In this document: positions 1,388 to 33,769 of the stretch, piece after piece
How the letters are laid out: each line of letters opens with the position of its first letter
Position numbering within the stretch: position 1 is the first letter of the stretch
Program-made: the position numbers and the translations under genes
The notes under the pieces: generated by a model
What the model was told of the DNA's origin: nothing
Databases searched by the model: none
Seen by the model: only the letters and a program-made list of their open reading frames with translations
Source: a virus
Reading direction: 5' to 3' (one strand)
Virus record (IMG/VR): IMGVR_UViG_3300037961_004603
Coordinates: 1-33,769 of that record
Length of the DNA stretch: 33,769 nt

Positions 1388-1803
1388 GTAAAGTTGCAGT
1401 TGTTACAGAGAATAGATCAGATGTTACTGTCTATTCAGATTTCTTTACAGACTTCTCTCGTAATGCAGTCACAGGTCAACTAAACAAAAAAACTAATGCT
1501 GAAGCTGTAAAACAATCAGTTAGAAACCTATTACTTACAGATAAGCTAGAAAGATTGTATCAACCAAGTGTAGGAGCTGGTCTAAGAGCTTTGTTATTTG
1601 AAAATGCAACACCATTTACTCAAATGCAAGTTCAATCATATATTAACGAAGCGATACGTAATCATGAGCCAAGAGCCGAGCTTATATCAACTGAGCTTGA
1701 GTTTAAGAATGATCAACACACTGCAGAGATAGTAGTAACATTTGCCATCATAAATATAGAAGACCCAGTAACATTTACCATAGGACTAGAGAGGACTAGA
1801 TAA
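1384..1803 (+). CDS. 25: Baseplate wedge subunit gp25-like
   Basis: A 139-residue protein of the gp25/GPW_gp25 family, close to the 132 residues of T4 gp25. These small wedge proteins sit in the core bundle of contractile-tail baseplates, next to the sheath initiation point. Family traits visible here are the AVxxSVRNLLLT helix, the LxxLLFENATPF segment, and the conserved EPR signature (NHEPRAEL, about residues 95-102) followed by two predicted beta strands. The start is GTG, overlapping the upstream stop. The stop TAA shares its last base with the ATG of gp6 (TAATG). The gp25-gp6 adjacency strengthens the call; in contractile systems these two families are standard wedge partners. Confidence 0.9.
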   Translation: MSKVAVVTENRSDVTVYSDFFTDFSRNAVTGQLNKKTNAEAVKQSVRNLLLTDKLERLYQPSVGAGLRALLFENATPFTQMQVQSYINEAIRNHEPRAELISTELEFKNDQHTAEIVVTFAIINIEDPVTFTIGLERTR

Positions 1804-3620
1804 TGGCTACGACCAATACAGAATTTTCGGTCGCCAACTTAGATTTTAGTACAATAAAATCTAACTTAATCACGTTTATGCAAGGCCAGGATATCTTTTC
1901 TGACTATGACTTCACTGGATCTAACTTAAATGTATTGATGGATCTGTTGTCATACAACACGTACTACAATTCAATATATCTTAACCATGTTGCAACTGAG
2001 ATGTTTCTTGATAGTGCACAGTTAAGAGATAGTGTGTACTCAATATCCAAGTCACTAAACTATCTACCAAGATCATTTAGATCATCGTTAGCATATGTAA
2101 ACATCAATGTGAACCCAACAAGCAATCCACATCAGATCACAATACCAAGACTTACTAAGTTAACATCTACTATTGGTGACAATACATATACATTTTCAAC
2201 CAATTCAGATATAATTGTGTATGCAAATAACAGCTATCTTGCTTCTAATGTAGCAATATACGAAGGTGATATAGTTCAAGAAGCATTTCTCGTTACAAAT
2301 ACATCACCAAACACACAAAGTTTCTTTATCAACAACTCAGATGTTGATGTTACAAGTCTTGCAGTAAAAATAAGAACTTCAAACACGGATAGTACAAATT
2401 CTGAGTACACAAGAGCAAATACACTATTTGGATTGACAAGTACAAGTAATGTATACTTTGTAGAGCCATCAACTAATGGAAGCTACAAAATTGTATTTGG
2501 AAATGGTACTTTTGGAAGACAACCATCAAATAACAATTTGGTTGAGATATCTTACAGAAGATCTAATGGAGAAGATCCAAATGGAGCTAATAATTTTTCT
2601 GCTGATAGTATCGCTGGCCACCCTGCAGCTATTAGTTTAGTTACCAGAGCTACTGGTGGATCAGGACCACAAGAACTTGATGATATAAGGTTCTCAGCTC
2701 CAAGAGCATTAGCAGTTCAAGAGAGAGCTGTTACAAAAGAAGACTATAAGACTATAGTTACAAATGAGTTCAATGATATTTCATCAATGAATGTCTATGA
2801 TGGTGCAGATGAACCTGTACCTCAGAATGGTGTTGTTAAGTTAGCAATACGTAGTGATTCATTTGACATTCTACCAACAACTCTCAAGACACAAATACAA
2901 AACTTCTTGAGAGATAAGACACCTATTGGTATAAGAACTGACATCATAGATCCAGAGTTTATTAACATAGAAGTCAAGGCAAATGTTAAGTACAACAGGA
3001 ATGCTACTACTGATGGACCTGGAACTATACAAACATCAGTTGAAACAACAGTAAATACATTCAATAATGATAATTTAGACGACTTCTTCAAGACATTCAG
3101 AAAAAGTAAGTTAATTGAAAAGATTAACGAGACAGCTACTTCTATCCTCAGTTGTGAAGTAGATGTAAGGATGATGAAACTGATAAGCCCACAAGCTGAT
3201 ATAAGTTTCAATAAAACATTGTTATTCAACCAAGCATTCAAGAGAGACAATCCAGTAGAGCCTGTATCGCAAGGATCATTTGTATCATTCTCTACTCCTA
3301 CAGTTCAATCAGAAACATTCGTATTCAATAACATTACTGGTGCATCATTGAGAGATAATGGAGCTGGAACACTACAAGTAGTGACAGCAAACTTGACAAA
3401 CATTGAAGTTTTGAGCGCTAATGTTGGCACAATTGACTATTCATCTGGGGAGGTTGCTATATCAAATCTTGTTATAAACTCATACTCATCTGGTACTTCA
3501 TCTGGTACCATAAAAATATTTGCTCGACCAGAGGATGATGACATCCAAGGACTGAGAAATGATGTTATAAGGATTAGAACAAATGAGACTAGTGTGAGTG
3601 TTATAGAACTTAGAGAGTGA
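1803..3620 (+). CDS. 6: Baseplate wedge subunit gp6-like (baseplate J family)
   Basis: A 605-residue protein, near the 660 of T4 gp6. T4-like gp6 forms the dimers that join baseplate wedges into a ring. The N-terminus has the typical helical region with NVLMDLLSYNTYYNS and the following SLNYLPRSFRSS segment (about residues 45-100). The centre has the baseplate J hallmark, in which a Gly/Ser-rich linker is followed by RAVTKEDYKTIV and then a strand-rich part containing NGVVKLAIRS (about residues 305-355). The C-terminal third is beta-rich. It begins one base before the end of gp25's stop and is followed after one base by the next baseplate gene, so it belongs to one transcription unit. Family assignment is secure. 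Confidence 0.9.
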   Translation: MATTNTEFSVANLDFSTIKSNLITFMQGQDIFSDYDFTGSNLNVLMDLLSYNTYYNSIYLNHVATEMFLDSAQLRDSVYSISKSLNYLPRSFRSSLAYVNINVNPTSNPHQITIPRLTKLTSTIGDNTYTFSTNSDIIVYANNSYLASNVAIYEGDIVQEAFLVTNTSPNTQSFFINNSDVDVTSLAVKIRTSNTDSTNSEYTRANTLFGLTSTSNVYFVEPSTNGSYKIVFGNGTFGRQPSNNNLVEISYRRSNGEDPNGANNFSADSIAGHPAAISLVTRATGGSGPQELDDIRFSAPRALAVQERAVTKEDYKTIVTNEFNDISSMNVYDGADEPVPQNGVVKLAIRSDSFDILPTTLKTQIQNFLRDKTPIGIRTDIIDPEFINIEVKANVKYNRNATTDGPGTIQTSVETTVNTFNNDNLDDFFKTFRKSKLIEKINETATSILSCEVDVRMMKLISPQADISFNKTLLFNQAFKRDNPVEPVSQGSFVSFSTPTVQSETFVFNNITGASLRDNGAGTLQVVTANLTNIEVLSANVGTIDYSSGEVAISNLVINSYSSGTSSGTIKIFARPEDDDIQGLRNDVIRIRTNETSVSVIELRE

Positions 3621-6297: not shown

Positions 6298-8061
6298 ATG
6301 ACAGAAAGAGTATATAAAGAGTTTAATGTTCACAGTGCAAGGCAGCTTGTTGAGTCAATTGAAGAAGCTGCTAACACAATGTACTATGTGTTTTCTACTA
6401 AGCACACAGCATTTTCAGAAAGCAGTACACCAACACCAAATAAATCAATAGCTAACTCATTATATCAAACATATGATGAAATGTTGTTTGGTAAACTTGT
6501 TACAGCTAATGATATTTCTCATGGAATAGAGAATTATGAGTGGGCAAATGGTACCATTTACCAACCATATGATGATCAAGATACAACATTATCAGATAAA
6601 GTTTACTACGTTTCTACACAAGAAGGTTCAGATTATCACGTATGGAAATGTATAAACAACAATGGAAATAGTGTTTCAAACTCGCAACCATTGTATTCTG
6701 ATGTGTCTAGTACTCTTGATTCTTTGTACGTAAAGAGTGCTACTGATGGATATCAATGGAGATTTATGTATACTATTCCAGCTGCTAAGTATACAAAATT
6801 TACATCTAACAACTATATTCCTGTTATATCTCATGCTAATGCACAAGGTAATGCAATCAATGGTGCACTAGATCATTACATTGTAACTGATAGTGGAAAC
6901 AACTATAACGAGTTTGCAAATGGTGCAGTAGTAACAGGCACAAACTCAACTGTATTTACAATTAACTCATCTAACTTTTCTATATCTGGTAATAATGATT
7001 TCTATAACAATTGTTCAATATACATGACTGGTGGTATAGGTAATGGTGAGATAAGAGAGATAGTAGATTATGTTGGTGCAACCAAAACTGTAACAGTCAA
7101 TACAGCATTCTCTGGTACACCAGATAGCACAAGTACATTTGAGATTACTCCAACAGTTAGAATCAAAGGTGATGGATCTAATGCTATTGCAAGAGCATTA
7201 ATTAACACATCAACAAATACTATAGCAAACATACAAATATTGCAACGAGGATCTAAGTACACATATGCAGATGTTACTATTGAAGCAAACAATATGGCTT
7301 CTGGTAACTTGGCAGCTGTCCGTGCAGTCATTGGTCCGTTTGGTGGCCACGCCCATGATCCTTTAGCTGAACTTGATGCAAGGTATGTAATCATATCAAC
7401 TGACTTTGCAAACAATGAAGCAAGCAACATACAAACAGATAATGATTTCAGAACTGTTGGCATATTGAAAAATCCATTTTATGCTAACACAAGAATAACA
7501 ATAGATTCACCAACAGCTAACTTCCAAGTAAATGAAACAGTAACTGATTCTGGTACTGGTGCTACAGGAACATTAATAACATCAAATACTACAACTGTTA
7601 GTCTTACTAATGCTTCTGGTATATTTTTGTTAACATCTAATGTGACAGGATCCATTACAGGAGCTACAGCTAATATTACAGCAGTAAGAGTTAACGATGC
7701 TGACTCTTCAAGAGCCAACTATCATTACTTCCAACAAACATCTAAGTTTGAACATAACTTAGTTTCTGGTAGTTCATTTACAGAGGATGAAAAGGTGACA
7801 CAAGCTACCAGTGGTGCAAATGGTATAGTATATCAAAGCAACGCTACACACACTTCCTTAACAACAGTACGTGGAACATTTGAAGATGCAAACAGCTATA
7901 TAGTTACTGGAGGTACTTCATCAGAAACAGCTCGATTCAAAGCTACAGTACCAGGAGATCTTGTGAGAGGATCTGGAGAGGTATTATTTTTGAAAAATAT
8001 TGAAGCAGTGTCGAGATCAAACACTTTAACCGAAACAGTCAAACTCGTGTTAAAATTTTAG
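6298..8061 (+). CDS. 8: Baseplate wedge subunit gp8-like, enlarged
   Basis: A 587-residue protein; T4 gp8 is 334. Shared landmarks are the segment DGYQWRFMYTIPA (about residues 151-163), matching DGYVWEYLFEIPP of T4 gp8, a preceding YHVWKCINNNG strand, a GGHAHDPLAELDA segment (about 350-362) and a C-terminal strand ending ETVKLVLKF, like the INILFTF end of T4 gp8. In T4, gp8 is a wedge dimer bridging gp6, gp7 and gp10. About 150-200 extra residues lie mainly between 400 and 560 and consist of loosely repeated beta modules (VTGSITGATANIT, VTQATSGANGIVY). The next gene starts nine bases after the stop, with a good ribosome site. Confidence 0.85.
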   Translation: MTERVYKEFNVHSARQLVESIEEAANTMYYVFSTKHTAFSESSTPTPNKSIANSLYQTYDEMLFGKLVTANDISHGIENYEWANGTIYQPYDDQDTTLSDKVYYVSTQEGSDYHVWKCINNNGNSVSNSQPLYSDVSSTLDSLYVKSATDGYQWRFMYTIPAAKYTKFTSNNYIPVISHANAQGNAINGALDHYIVTDSGNNYNEFANGAVVTGTNSTVFTINSSNFSISGNNDFYNNCSIYMTGGIGNGEIREIVDYVGATKTVTVNTAFSGTPDSTSTFEITPTVRIKGDGSNAIARALINTSTNTIANIQILQRGSKYTYADVTIEANNMASGNLAAVRAVIGPFGGHAHDPLAELDARYVIISTDFANNEASNIQTDNDFRTVGILKNPFYANTRITIDSPTANFQVNETVTDSGTGATGTLITSNTTTVSLTNASGIFLLTSNVTGSITGATANITAVRVNDADSSRANYHYFQQTSKFEHNLVSGSSFTEDEKVTQATSGANGIVYQSNATHTSLTTVRGTFEDANSYIVTGGTSSETARFKATVPGDLVRGSGEVLFLKNIEAVSRSNTLTETVKLVLKF

Positions 8062-31379: not shown

Positions 31380-32103
31380 ATGGCAAAAGTTCATCTGGGA
31401 TTTAGATCTACCAAATAATTTTGGCCAAGGAAAGAAGTTCAAAGCTCGTGGTGGTAAGTTCTTCAAAGAAGGTAGATCAGAGTATGCAAGTTCTGTTGAA
31501 TGTCTTAACTCTCTAAGACACGATGAGCATGATGGATATCCTCCAGACTCATATGGATATGATTTCAATCAAATAGCTACATGGATAAAGTCTGGTACTT
31601 TATCAGCAGATATAGGTAAGCCTTTAGCTGAAAAGAGTCAGTGGTTAGATGACAATCTTGGAGCCTACTTGGGGTATAGGTTCTGTGCATTGAAAATGTA
31701 TTATCCTCCACAAGGATATATCTCGTGGCATACTAACTGGAATGTACCAAGTTACAATATCTTATTTACTTACAATCCTACTGGTGATGGTTTCTGGAGA
31801 CACATCAATCCTACTGGTTCAAAATCACATAAACCTAATATAGGAGAGAATGAAGAGAACGTAGTAACTATTCCTGACAAGCCAGGATGGTCATGTAAGG
31901 TTGGATACTATGGACGTAAAGAAGAACATGATAAGATTGTTTGGCATACAGCGTATACCAATGAACCAAGAATTACATTAGGTTATGTTATATACGAAGA
32001 AAGTATTTGGAAGAATACTGTTGAAGAGATTGCTGGTAAAGAGTTAGTATGGCCTCTAGCTCCATACGAACCAGAGACTGTACAAACATCATTTACTAAA
32101 TAA
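31330..32103 (+). CDS. 2-oxoglutarate/Fe(II) oxygenase-like (double-stranded beta-helix) protein
   Basis: A 257-residue protein. Residues 1-110 are mixed helical. Residues 111-223 look like the jelly-roll core of prolyl-hydroxylase-type enzymes: YRFCALKMYYPPQGYISWH, then T-N, strands to NILFTYN, GDGFWRHIN, GWSCKVGYYG and IVWHTAYTNEPRITLGYVIY. The second metal histidine (H206) and the Arg that would bind 2-oxoglutarate (R214) are in the right order. The usual HxD is H134-T-N136, an Asn in place of the acidic ligand, so catalysis is uncertain. It overlaps the glycosyltransferase by 50 bases, with no suitable in-frame later ATG near that stop. Its 3' end overlaps the opposite-strand gene by eight bases. 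A hydroxylase role is inference. Confidence 0.65.
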   Translation: MTPIYQIQSEILTYLDEWQKFIWDLDLPNNFGQGKKFKARGGKFFKEGRSEYASSVECLNSLRHDEHDGYPPDSYGYDFNQIATWIKSGTLSADIGKPLAEKSQWLDDNLGAYLGYRFCALKMYYPPQGYISWHTNWNVPSYNILFTYNPTGDGFWRHINPTGSKSHKPNIGENEENVVTIPDKPGWSCKVGYYGRKEEHDKIVWHTAYTNEPRITLGYVIYEESIWKNTVEEIAGKELVWPLAPYEPETVQTSFTK

Positions 32104-32485
32104 ACCTTGATCCAAACTTATGATACTCTTTATGTGACTTTTTACACACATTGACAAGTACATAGTATAATATTTTTTCATGTTGAGTCTTTACAGATTC
32201 ATGAAGGTCGATGCCAGGTACTCTATAGTTTGTCATTGTATACAATAAGTACCATACATCTTTGACACCTTTGAATACAATGTTATCTAATCCATTGTAC
32301 TCTATAGCCTTCTTGTATCCTTCCCATTGGTTCTGTACATTCATTGCATCATGTAGTTCTTTAACTATAGGTTGAATCTTTTTCCATTCACTGTCTTGTT
32401 CTGCAACAAACATTTGGTTGAATAACTGCTGACTATATAACAACATAACAAAGCCATAGATCTGGCTATCGACCATCATTCTCAT
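32096..32485 (-). CDS. Hypothetical protein
   Basis: A 129-residue protein, unrecognised. It is probably all-helical, with aromatic and Met-rich helices (IYGFVMLLYSQQLFNQMF) and a charged middle (EWKKIQPIVKELHDAMN). It starts MRMMVDSQ and ends in a Lys/His-rich tail (KKSHKEYHKFGSRFI). It lies 15 bases downstream of the PiT-like permease gene on the same strand, with AAAGG in the gap as a possible ribosome site, so the two are likely cotranscribed. Its last codons overlap the convergent oxygenase-like gene by eight bases. No membrane span is convincing. Confidence 0.65.
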   Translation of the reverse strand: MRMMVDSQIYGFVMLLYSQQLFNQMFVAEQDSEWKKIQPIVKELHDAMNVQNQWEGYKKAIEYNGLDNIVFKGVKDVWYLLYTMTNYRVPGIDLHESVKTQHEKILYYVLVNVCKKSHKEYHKFGSRFI

Positions 32486-32500
32486 TTTATGTAAACCTTT

Positions 32501-33460
32501 CTAAAGTCCGTTTGGTACAATTATATAGTGTATTGCCAGAACAACACCAACCGATGCACCAAGACCAATCATCATCTTAAAGAAGTCTTTTCCTACAAGA
32601 GGAAACACCACTTTAAATTTTTCTTTGCCAGTCATAGTAGCCATGGCAAGTTCTCGACCACAAAGAAGTCCTACAAACACCCAAGTTGTTGACATTGGAA
32701 TATCATTGAGTTCCTTAAAGAAGAATAAGATTACCCAATAAACACCATCAATAATGGTTGCACTTCGTACATAACGTGTATTGTGTTTCTCGAGGACAAT
32801 GTTCTGGATCTTACCTCCACCTTCTCTAAACATCCACCATAGACCACCAACAAATACCACACTGATACACACCATAAGGTCTACTGGAATTTCTCTAGGA
32901 AGGAACACAGCAATGTTTGCCATGTCATGAGATAACCAAGTCCACCAAAGAAAACCTGTTGTAAACCATTGACCTACTCGCCAATATATTTTATGTTCTT
33001 CTTTTACAGGTTTTGCTTCATCTAAAATTTTAGTTACACCGATCCAGATAACATAAGCTGCAACAGCTGCAACAGCATATCCCATCATGGATTTCATCAA
33101 CATTTTCTCTAACACAAAAGTTGAAGCAAATGCAGATAGTACTAAAAATGAAGTTGATACTGGTACACCTATTCGAGTAAGCAATAGAAGTAGACCAGGG
33201 GCCATAGCATGATACCATTGTATCTCTTGAAACGGTATCTTATTAAGTCGGCCATACGATATATCTCCACCGTACATATACCAACCATACCATAGTGCCC
33301 ATAATAAAACAGATGATGCAGATAACCACATCACCTTCCAATTTACTCTATCGTTATTAGATGCAATCCATGTACCTAGGGTTTGCACAGAATCGTTTGC
33401 AATTACAGAATATGCAGCAAATAAAAAACCCACTGCCATCCATAGAGTTACTAGTTCCAT
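32501..33460 (-). CDS. PiT/PHO4-like inorganic phosphate permease
   Basis: A 319-residue integral membrane protein with about nine or ten hydrophobic segments. PiT transporters move phosphate with a coupling ion and contain two inverted repeats, each with an ND/DxxN signature and a P-x-S-T loop. Both pairs are visible: AND at 21-23 (AYSVIANDSVQTLGT) with VPVSTSF at 99-105, and HDMAN at 178-182 with IPMSTTW at 254-260. The protein is shorter than typical PiT proteins (about 400-500), mostly by lacking a long central loop. It would sit in the host inner membrane. The start is supported by GGAG eight bases upstream. It reads opposite to the structural operon. It is likely an auxiliary metabolic gene; substrate and activity are inferred from family motifs only. 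Confidence 0.75.
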   Translation of the reverse strand: MELVTLWMAVGFLFAAYSVIANDSVQTLGTWIASNNDRVNWKVMWLSASSVLLWALWYGWYMYGGDISYGRLNKIPFQEIQWYHAMAPGLLLLLTRIGVPVSTSFLVLSAFASTFVLEKMLMKSMMGYAVAAVAAYVIWIGVTKILDEAKPVKEEHKIYWRVGQWFTTGFLWWTWLSHDMANIAVFLPREIPVDLMVCISVVFVGGLWWMFREGGGKIQNIVLEKHNTRYVRSATIIDGVYWVILFFFKELNDIPMSTTWVFVGLLCGRELAMATMTGKEKFKVVFPLVGKDFFKMMIGLGASVGVVLAIHYIIVPNGL

Positions 33461-33468
33461 AGTAATTT

Positions 33469-33472
33469 CTCC
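33469..33472 (-). promoter_or_regulatory. Ribosome binding site of the permease gene
   Basis: On the minus strand GGAG lies eight bases before the ATG whose first base is 33460, supporting that start. Confidence 0.55.
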
Positions 33473-33546: not shown

Positions 33547-33765
33547 TTATTTGGGTTCGTCTCTGTTTACCTTTCCTATAACCATTATACGTTTAGCTCC
33601 TAAGAACTCTCTTGACTCACCATAATATATTTTTCTTAGGTGTGCTTGTCTTGAAAGTTCATTAGCTCCATCTGCACAGTTGATGTGCAACCATTTTACA
33701 TTTTTATTATTATTACTTTGTAGTACATACAATTTATCTGGGAACTGGTTAGTTATGTACTTCAT
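33547..33765 (-). CDS. Small hypothetical protein at the window edge (possibly 5' truncated)
   Basis: A 72-residue frame with mixed alpha/beta character: FPDKLYVLQSNNNKNVKWLHINCA, a helix (ANELSRQAHLRKIYYG) and a strand (KRIMVIGKV). The ATG at 33765 is only four bases from the window end, so the ribosome site cannot be seen and the frame may continue upstream. I do not recognise a family. It is on the same strand as the permease and separated from it by 86 bases. Confidence 0.55.
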   Translation of the reverse strand: MKYITNQFPDKLYVLQSNNNKNVKWLHINCADGANELSRQAHLRKIYYGESREFLGAKRIMVIGKVNRDEPK

Positions 33766-33769
33766 ATCC

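Follow-up and report, generated by a model that had tools for sequence, protein, structure and literature searches.

A probable phosphate permease in a T4-like phage, from a compact and divergent PiT subfamily

The window, that is, the whole stretch of DNA analysed here (33,769 nucleotides), belongs to a 43,240-base record of a marine virus, IMGVR_UViG_3300037961_004603 of IMG/VR. Near its end, an open reading frame of 319 residues carries both signature pairs of the PiT phosphate transporters, as the first-pass annotation had noticed from the letters, and it lies on the minus strand. The features of the locus are given below.

1803..3620, plus strand: T4-type baseplate wedge subunit (phrog_219, E=1.7e-149)
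6298..8061, plus strand: T4-type baseplate wedge subunit (phrog_438, E=4.4e-86)
32096..32485, minus strand: 129-aa open reading frame directly downstream of the permease gene, no family match
32501..33460, minus strand: PiT-like permease gene P0001, 319 aa (open reading frame and translation; profile, fold and context; dN/dS)
32687..32698, minus strand: repeat 2 signature PMST, residues 255-258, aligned with P(I/V)STT of canonical PiT
32915..32929, minus strand: repeat 2 signature HDMAN, residues 178-182, aligned with NDVAN of canonical PiT
33152..33163, minus strand: repeat 1 signature PVST, residues 100-103, aligned with PVSTT of canonical PiT
33392..33400, minus strand: repeat 1 signature AND, residues 21-23, aligned with GAND of canonical PiT
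33469..33472, minus strand: ribosome binding site GGAG, 8 bases 5' of the permease ATG, from the sequence

The T4-type baseplate wedge genes mark the contig as that of a T4-like phage, as had been proposed. Among cultured phages they come closest, at 34-36% identity, to Caulobacter phage Cr30, the Sinorhizobium phiM12 group, and Pelagibacter HTVC008M, all with alphaproteobacterial hosts. The gene had been assigned to a phage structural region. It does lie just after the plus-strand tail genes, but the permease itself is part of a minus-strand accessory gene group, which ends with the permease and the 129-aa open reading frame. For the latter, no relative was seen in the rest of the viral loci that were collected first. 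Upstream of the permease lies a 211-aa gene (L082:1548-2183, record 33547-34182), whose stored sequence includes a run of N; its part inside the window (33547-33768) has no family match. The rest of the minus-strand group (L082:2183-6302) comprises mutually similar open reading frames, which by eye could be glycosyltransferases, and, also by eye, one open reading frame with a radical-SAM-like motif, CxxxCxxC. With a phage contig around it and relatives on bacterial chromosomes, the permease gene qualifies as a phage auxiliary metabolic gene.

The signature context is VIANDSVQTLGTWIAS and GVPVSTSF in repeat 1, and WLSHDMANIAVFLP and DIPMSTTW in repeat 2. The spacing from the aspartate motif to the serine motif is nearly equal in the two, with 79 residues from AND to PVST and 78 from HDMAN to PMST. 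In an alignment of 52 diverse relatives, which reaches down to 51% identity, the invariant residues are N22, D23, and P100-V101-S102-T103 in repeat 1, and D179, A181, N182, and P255-M256-S257-T258-T259 in repeat 2; the signature motifs are thus no chance match. The first signature reads ND-SVQ, whereas canonical PiT has ND-VAN. Residues Q26, T27, L28, and G29 are likewise invariant in this alignment, and the ND-SVQ form is common to the chromosomal relatives. The GGAG ribosome binding site is found at the same position in most viral relatives.

The search against PF01384 proposed in the first-pass annotation gave the permease 6.1 bits, whereas 33.7 bits are needed to reach the gathering cut-off. 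Ten relatives, viral and bacterial, fell short of it too, with 30.4 bits as the best score, and such a shared shortfall points to a separate subfamily. PHROGs and a viral structure library gave no match to the permease, the PDB searched with the single sequence gave nothing, and an NCBIfam search gave nothing useful; NCBIfam matches of ZupT or HgcAB-like type were dismissed as noise. A profile of 22 viral relatives (A1) matched one PDB chain, TmPiT 6L85, at E=7.5e-4, and a profile of 52 rows (A2) gave no PDB match at E<=1, 6L85 included. When the permease family was aligned with 35 canonical PiT proteins by hhalign, the match was colinear over both halves (E=3.7e-5) with all four motifs in register, and the same comparison yielded a second alignment in which the repeats were swapped. 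The family profile also recovers canonical PiT in two bacterial genomes at E=1.3e-5 and 2.1e-5. Alignment of the N-half of the permease with its C-half was weak and unconvincing; the case for an internal repeat is therefore built on the order and spacing of the motifs and on the repeat-swapped alignment.

The predicted structure agrees with these profiles. An AlphaFold2 model built with the 52 relatives has a pLDDT of 81 and a pTM of 0.81; an earlier model from 22 near-identical viral sequences (pLDDT 41) was discarded. In a Foldseek search of the PDB, the single match below 0.001 was 6L85 (E=7.3e-5, probability 1.00), with a moderate TM score of 0.59 and an rmsd of 9.4 across the whole chain, and the two-repeat fold expected by the first-pass annotation is therefore borne out in the model. 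The permease shows the two-repeat motifs, the homology over both repeats, and the predicted fold of the PiT superfamily in its wide sense. Judged by profiles and predicted fold, it is a PiT superfamily member of a compact, divergent subfamily outside the curated Pfam family. The PiT/PHO4-like identity and two-repeat architecture first suggested for it have stood, and membership in the curated family PF01384 has not.

TmPiT, the Na+-dependent phosphate transporter of Thermotoga maritima (6L85), and the PiT/PHO4 proteins (PF01384, SLC20) have the same order of aspartate and PxST motifs in two repeats. In contrast, the permease is only about 15% identical to TmPiT and canonical PiT, is about 80 residues shorter, and lies below the Pfam cut-off. 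It has ND-SVQT and HDMAN-IAVF in place of the canonical GANDVAN, and PVSTS-F and PMSTT-W in place of the canonical PVSTTH.

A PiT-type permease in such a phage had been thought not commonplace. This holds for the 50,697 phage records in which a translated search found no permease relative, and where a canonical PiT query gave four matches only, all bacterial-looking; it does not hold for IMG/VR, where relatives are encoded on at least 597 candidate stretches and further viral clades come in when diverged members serve as queries. Genome assemblies contain 121 relatives, from marine alphaproteobacteria including Pelagibacteraceae, from Flavobacteriales, and from a few others, although the top five look like viral contigs binned into MAGs. 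Chromosomal relatives are about 60-66% identical to the window permease. A tree built from 57 members places the window gene inside a virus-only clade of 19-22 rows (SH-aLRT 93-97), and the phylogeny, which had been proposed as a way to find the donor, leaves none to be named. Well-supported branches force at least four virus/bacterium changes over the whole tree. The gene is, as read from this tree, an old phage lineage, with repeated virus-bacterium exchange elsewhere. Its dN/dS of 0.03-0.06 against 13 viral relatives indicates that the protein is kept by strong purifying selection.

The viral relatives often have phosphate-related company. A PstS-family gene lies directly beside the permease in 13 viral loci, and these neighbours match PF12849 at E=4e-42 to 1e-49, with a TIGR02136 match below its cut-off. 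The nearest relative, L002, is 98.7% identical to the window permease and has a PstS-family gene at L002:2150-3082. This gene is preceded, near position 2103, by an incomplete duplicate of the start of the permease (ACTATGGAACTAGTAACTCTTTG), which is repeated at the true start, and the region further upstream resembles that of the window. In L002, pstS thus looks like an insertion between promoter and permease. Several further elements were observed on the viral contigs. A ribose-phosphate pyrophosphokinase-like open reading frame (by eye; family f17, e.g. L060:6826-7785) lies just downstream of the permease in 11 loci. Permuted tmRNA genes of alphaproteobacterial type (RF01849 / RF04321) are present at L322:1865-2181 and L175:2979-3370, and glutamine riboswitch aptamers (RF01739) at L051:3499-3613 (tandem) and L078:6650-6698. 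A freshwater-2 RNA (RF02980) at L165:6988-7070 begins no more than 30 bases away from the permease match and extends to the start codon of the following gene.

Chromosomal copies have neighbours of a similar kind. In Flavobacteriales, a PhoB/PhoR-type pair, winged-helix response regulator plus histidine kinase, lies upstream of the permease copy, and an SBF-family transporter, by eye like the arsenite exporter ACR3, follows it. Polyphosphate kinase lies directly downstream in L092 and L100, and the phosphate-selective porin Porin_O_P adjoins the relative in L104, L152, L156, and L160. In 24 alphaproteobacterial loci, a PhoU-like DUF47 gene and a canonical PiT are found 1-4 kb away. Moreover, znuABC/zur-like genes occur near some chromosomal copies.

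The regions upstream of the viral relatives contain Pho-box-like direct repeats with an 11-bp period in 14 of 74 distinct regions, compared with 6 among 369 regions taken from these contigs as controls; the enrichment is at spacing 11 only, and the pattern was picked after some of the sequences had been viewed. This version with matched controls supersedes an initial check for TGTCA direct repeats. The site of the window gene itself is marginal (14/16) and AT-rich. Direct repeats of 11 bp, of CTTAACAT or CTGTAACAT type, were also observed upstream of the permease in L107, L109, L111, L120, and L089, which include chromosomal and other loci, and are possible candidates for PhoB sites.

A de novo search for a Pho-box motif in the viral upstream regions returned a hairpin instead, which lies just 5' of the ribosome site in many viral relatives. 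Its layout consists of GUGAGC, a 5-bp stem, the loop GGUAAAG, the closing stem, AAGCA, and AGGAG. In 30 distinct sequences, all seven pairs vary on both sides yet stay paired, and 96% of cells are paired compared with 78% after shuffling and 23-41% after sliding. A second hairpin, with a loop that is usually AACGUCGA, lies directly 5' of this main one. Over 41 sequences, the hairpin pair has 92.7% of cells paired versus 74.9% shuffled, and 104 double-change cells versus 35.7 shuffled. A constant GGUAAA loop in the first hairpin was ruled out, since it occurs in a minority and most have a CAACGUCGAG loop. A search of Rfam with the leader gave no match even at E<=5. Examples of the tandem-hairpin leader, which has about 140 further viral sites, are:

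L078:7922-7991
L176:5926-5993
L067:7922-7991

The leader is closely associated with phosphate-uptake genes. In a pattern scan of IMG/VR made independently of the permease, 117 of 120 hairpin sites had a permease within 2.2 kb downstream. Among 144 distinct leader elements, 129 precede a permease, 10 an outer-membrane-like protein (one type of which matches PF24653 Phage_OMP), 3 a PstS gene, and 1 a 55-aa Cys-rich open reading frame, while 1 runs off the contig end. Eight loci have two elements, one before a PstS or outer-membrane protein gene and the other before the permease. A generic phage ribosome-site hairpin was ruled out, because exactly one copy of the main hairpin is present in 12 of 18 large viral records and it lies nearly always 5' of phosphate-uptake genes. 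The window permease gene is without the tandem-hairpin leader. Under strict filters, the leader was not found in chromosomal permease copies either, leader R1 had no match in 289 alphaproteobacterial genomes, and leader R2 had one weak match (E=0.002) in 240. Its covariation and placement suggest that the leader is a cis-regulatory RNA dedicated to the phosphate-uptake genes of phages. A wider reading, to which we give even chances, is that marine T4-like phages run their own phosphate-uptake regulon of outer-membrane barrel, PstS, and PiT-like permease. The genes of this regulon would be recognisable by a cis-regulatory RNA of a new class, with two covarying hairpins before the ribosome site, that senses a phosphate-related signal or an RNA-binding protein.

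Taken on sequence, structural model, and gene context, the gene very probably encodes an ion-coupled inorganic phosphate permease of the compact, divergent PiT subfamily, and confidence in phosphate as the substrate is about equally high. The permease would be made from the phage genome during infection and would insert in the host inner membrane, where the paired D and S/T motifs would bind phosphate between them for transport inward with Na+ or H+. The supply of phosphate would thereby rise when the phage needs it for DNA and would feed nucleotide synthesis. Where present, a neighbouring PstS or outer-membrane barrel may raise periplasmic phosphate for the permease, with PstS presumably acting without PstCAB. 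Since hundreds of viral relatives carry the permease, often with other phosphate-uptake genes and the RNA leader, infected cells are seemingly fed phosphate for virus DNA.

The main rival to phosphate is suggested by the znuABC/zur-like neighbours of some relatives, namely that the PiT-fold permease carries a different oxyanion (sulfate as in CysP, or arsenate) or metal-phosphate and would serve another need of the phage. The PiT family includes sulfate carriers, and an ACR3-like SBF transporter beside some chromosomal copies and the ND-SVQ signature are in line with such a substrate. On the other hand, the nearest genes are often of the PstS family, a PhoB/R-type pair, polyphosphate kinase, Porin_O_P, or PhoU-like, in an untargeted survey of the neighbours. 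Arsenate enters cells by phosphate carriers, and an arsenite exporter beside a phosphate permease is for this reason to be expected. The diverged signature, which the first-pass annotation took as a hint of altered substrate, gives no sign of a substrate change in the phage because chromosomal relatives share it, and the neighbours favour phosphate. A substrate other than phosphate is thus considered unlikely.

Loss of transport altogether is far less probable. A degenerate PiT could act as a sensor that alters host phosphate signalling or as a superinfection block at the receptor; phages do use membrane proteins for exclusion, and the protein is small (319 aa) with almost no PF01384 score. 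Against this, the paired D and S/T residues are invariant in the 52 relatives, selection is strong over the whole protein, and chromosomal relatives are equally long. In addition, three of the genomes tested, those of L097, L109, and L150, have only sub-threshold PF01384 matches, as expected if the permease is their sole PiT relative. That the gene is no phage gene, and came into the contig as host DNA through mis-assembly or mis-binning, is scarcely credible even though bacterial chromosomes hold relatives: T4-type baseplate genes lie on the same contig, the 98.7% identical copy is on another viral contig, and the clade is virus-only, with chromosomal copies at most about 66% identical. A phage-borne phosphate permease of the compact subfamily remains the preferred reading.

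Several related systems are already known, namely phage pstS, the pho4 genes of algal viruses, and one phage-like ocean clone with pho4. Algal giant viruses carry pho4 phosphate transporter genes of the PHO4 superfamily, and one phage-like Pacific environmental clone with pho4 was placed near the alphaproteobacterium HIMB59 (Monier et al. 2012, PMC3429862). The algal-virus transporter is also virus-borne and of this superfamily, but it belongs to eukaryote-infecting viruses and is recognised by the PHO4 model, whereas the present case involves hundreds of tailed-phage loci, a compact subfamily below the cut-off, and PstS neighbours. In cyanophages, pstS and PhoB-controlled phage genes are tied to host phosphate signalling (Rihtman et al. 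2024, PMC10976474). The same paper cautions against trusting Pho boxes predicted in phages, which applies to the 11-bp repeats described above as well. For cyanophages, a periplasmic binding protein is described, while here a membrane permease is carried, sometimes with PstS. The Pelagibacter phage HTVC008M (Kyanoviridae) has the same order of baseplate genes, tail genes, and a minus-strand host-like group; unlike the window phage, it has 2OG-Fe(II) oxygenases in this group and no permease. What appears to be new, as far as checked, is the compact subfamily and how widely it occurs among uncultured tailed phages, together with the PstS pairing and the leader RNA; the open-licence literature searched yielded no description of them.

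Among the elemental requirements of DNA phages, phosphate comes first, and large parts of the surface ocean are poor in it. If the proposed function is true, uncultured marine phages of a common group supply a phosphate permease of their own, which has been missed so far because it lies under the Pfam cut-off and is in no PHROG family and no cultured phage record. The bacterial subfamily is named with it, and may be the sole PiT-type carrier in some SAR11-related and flavobacterial genomes. Moreover, the leader RNA would offer a handle on how phages tune phosphate-uptake genes, and the old question of whether phages raise the nutrient uptake of the infected cell would become testable.
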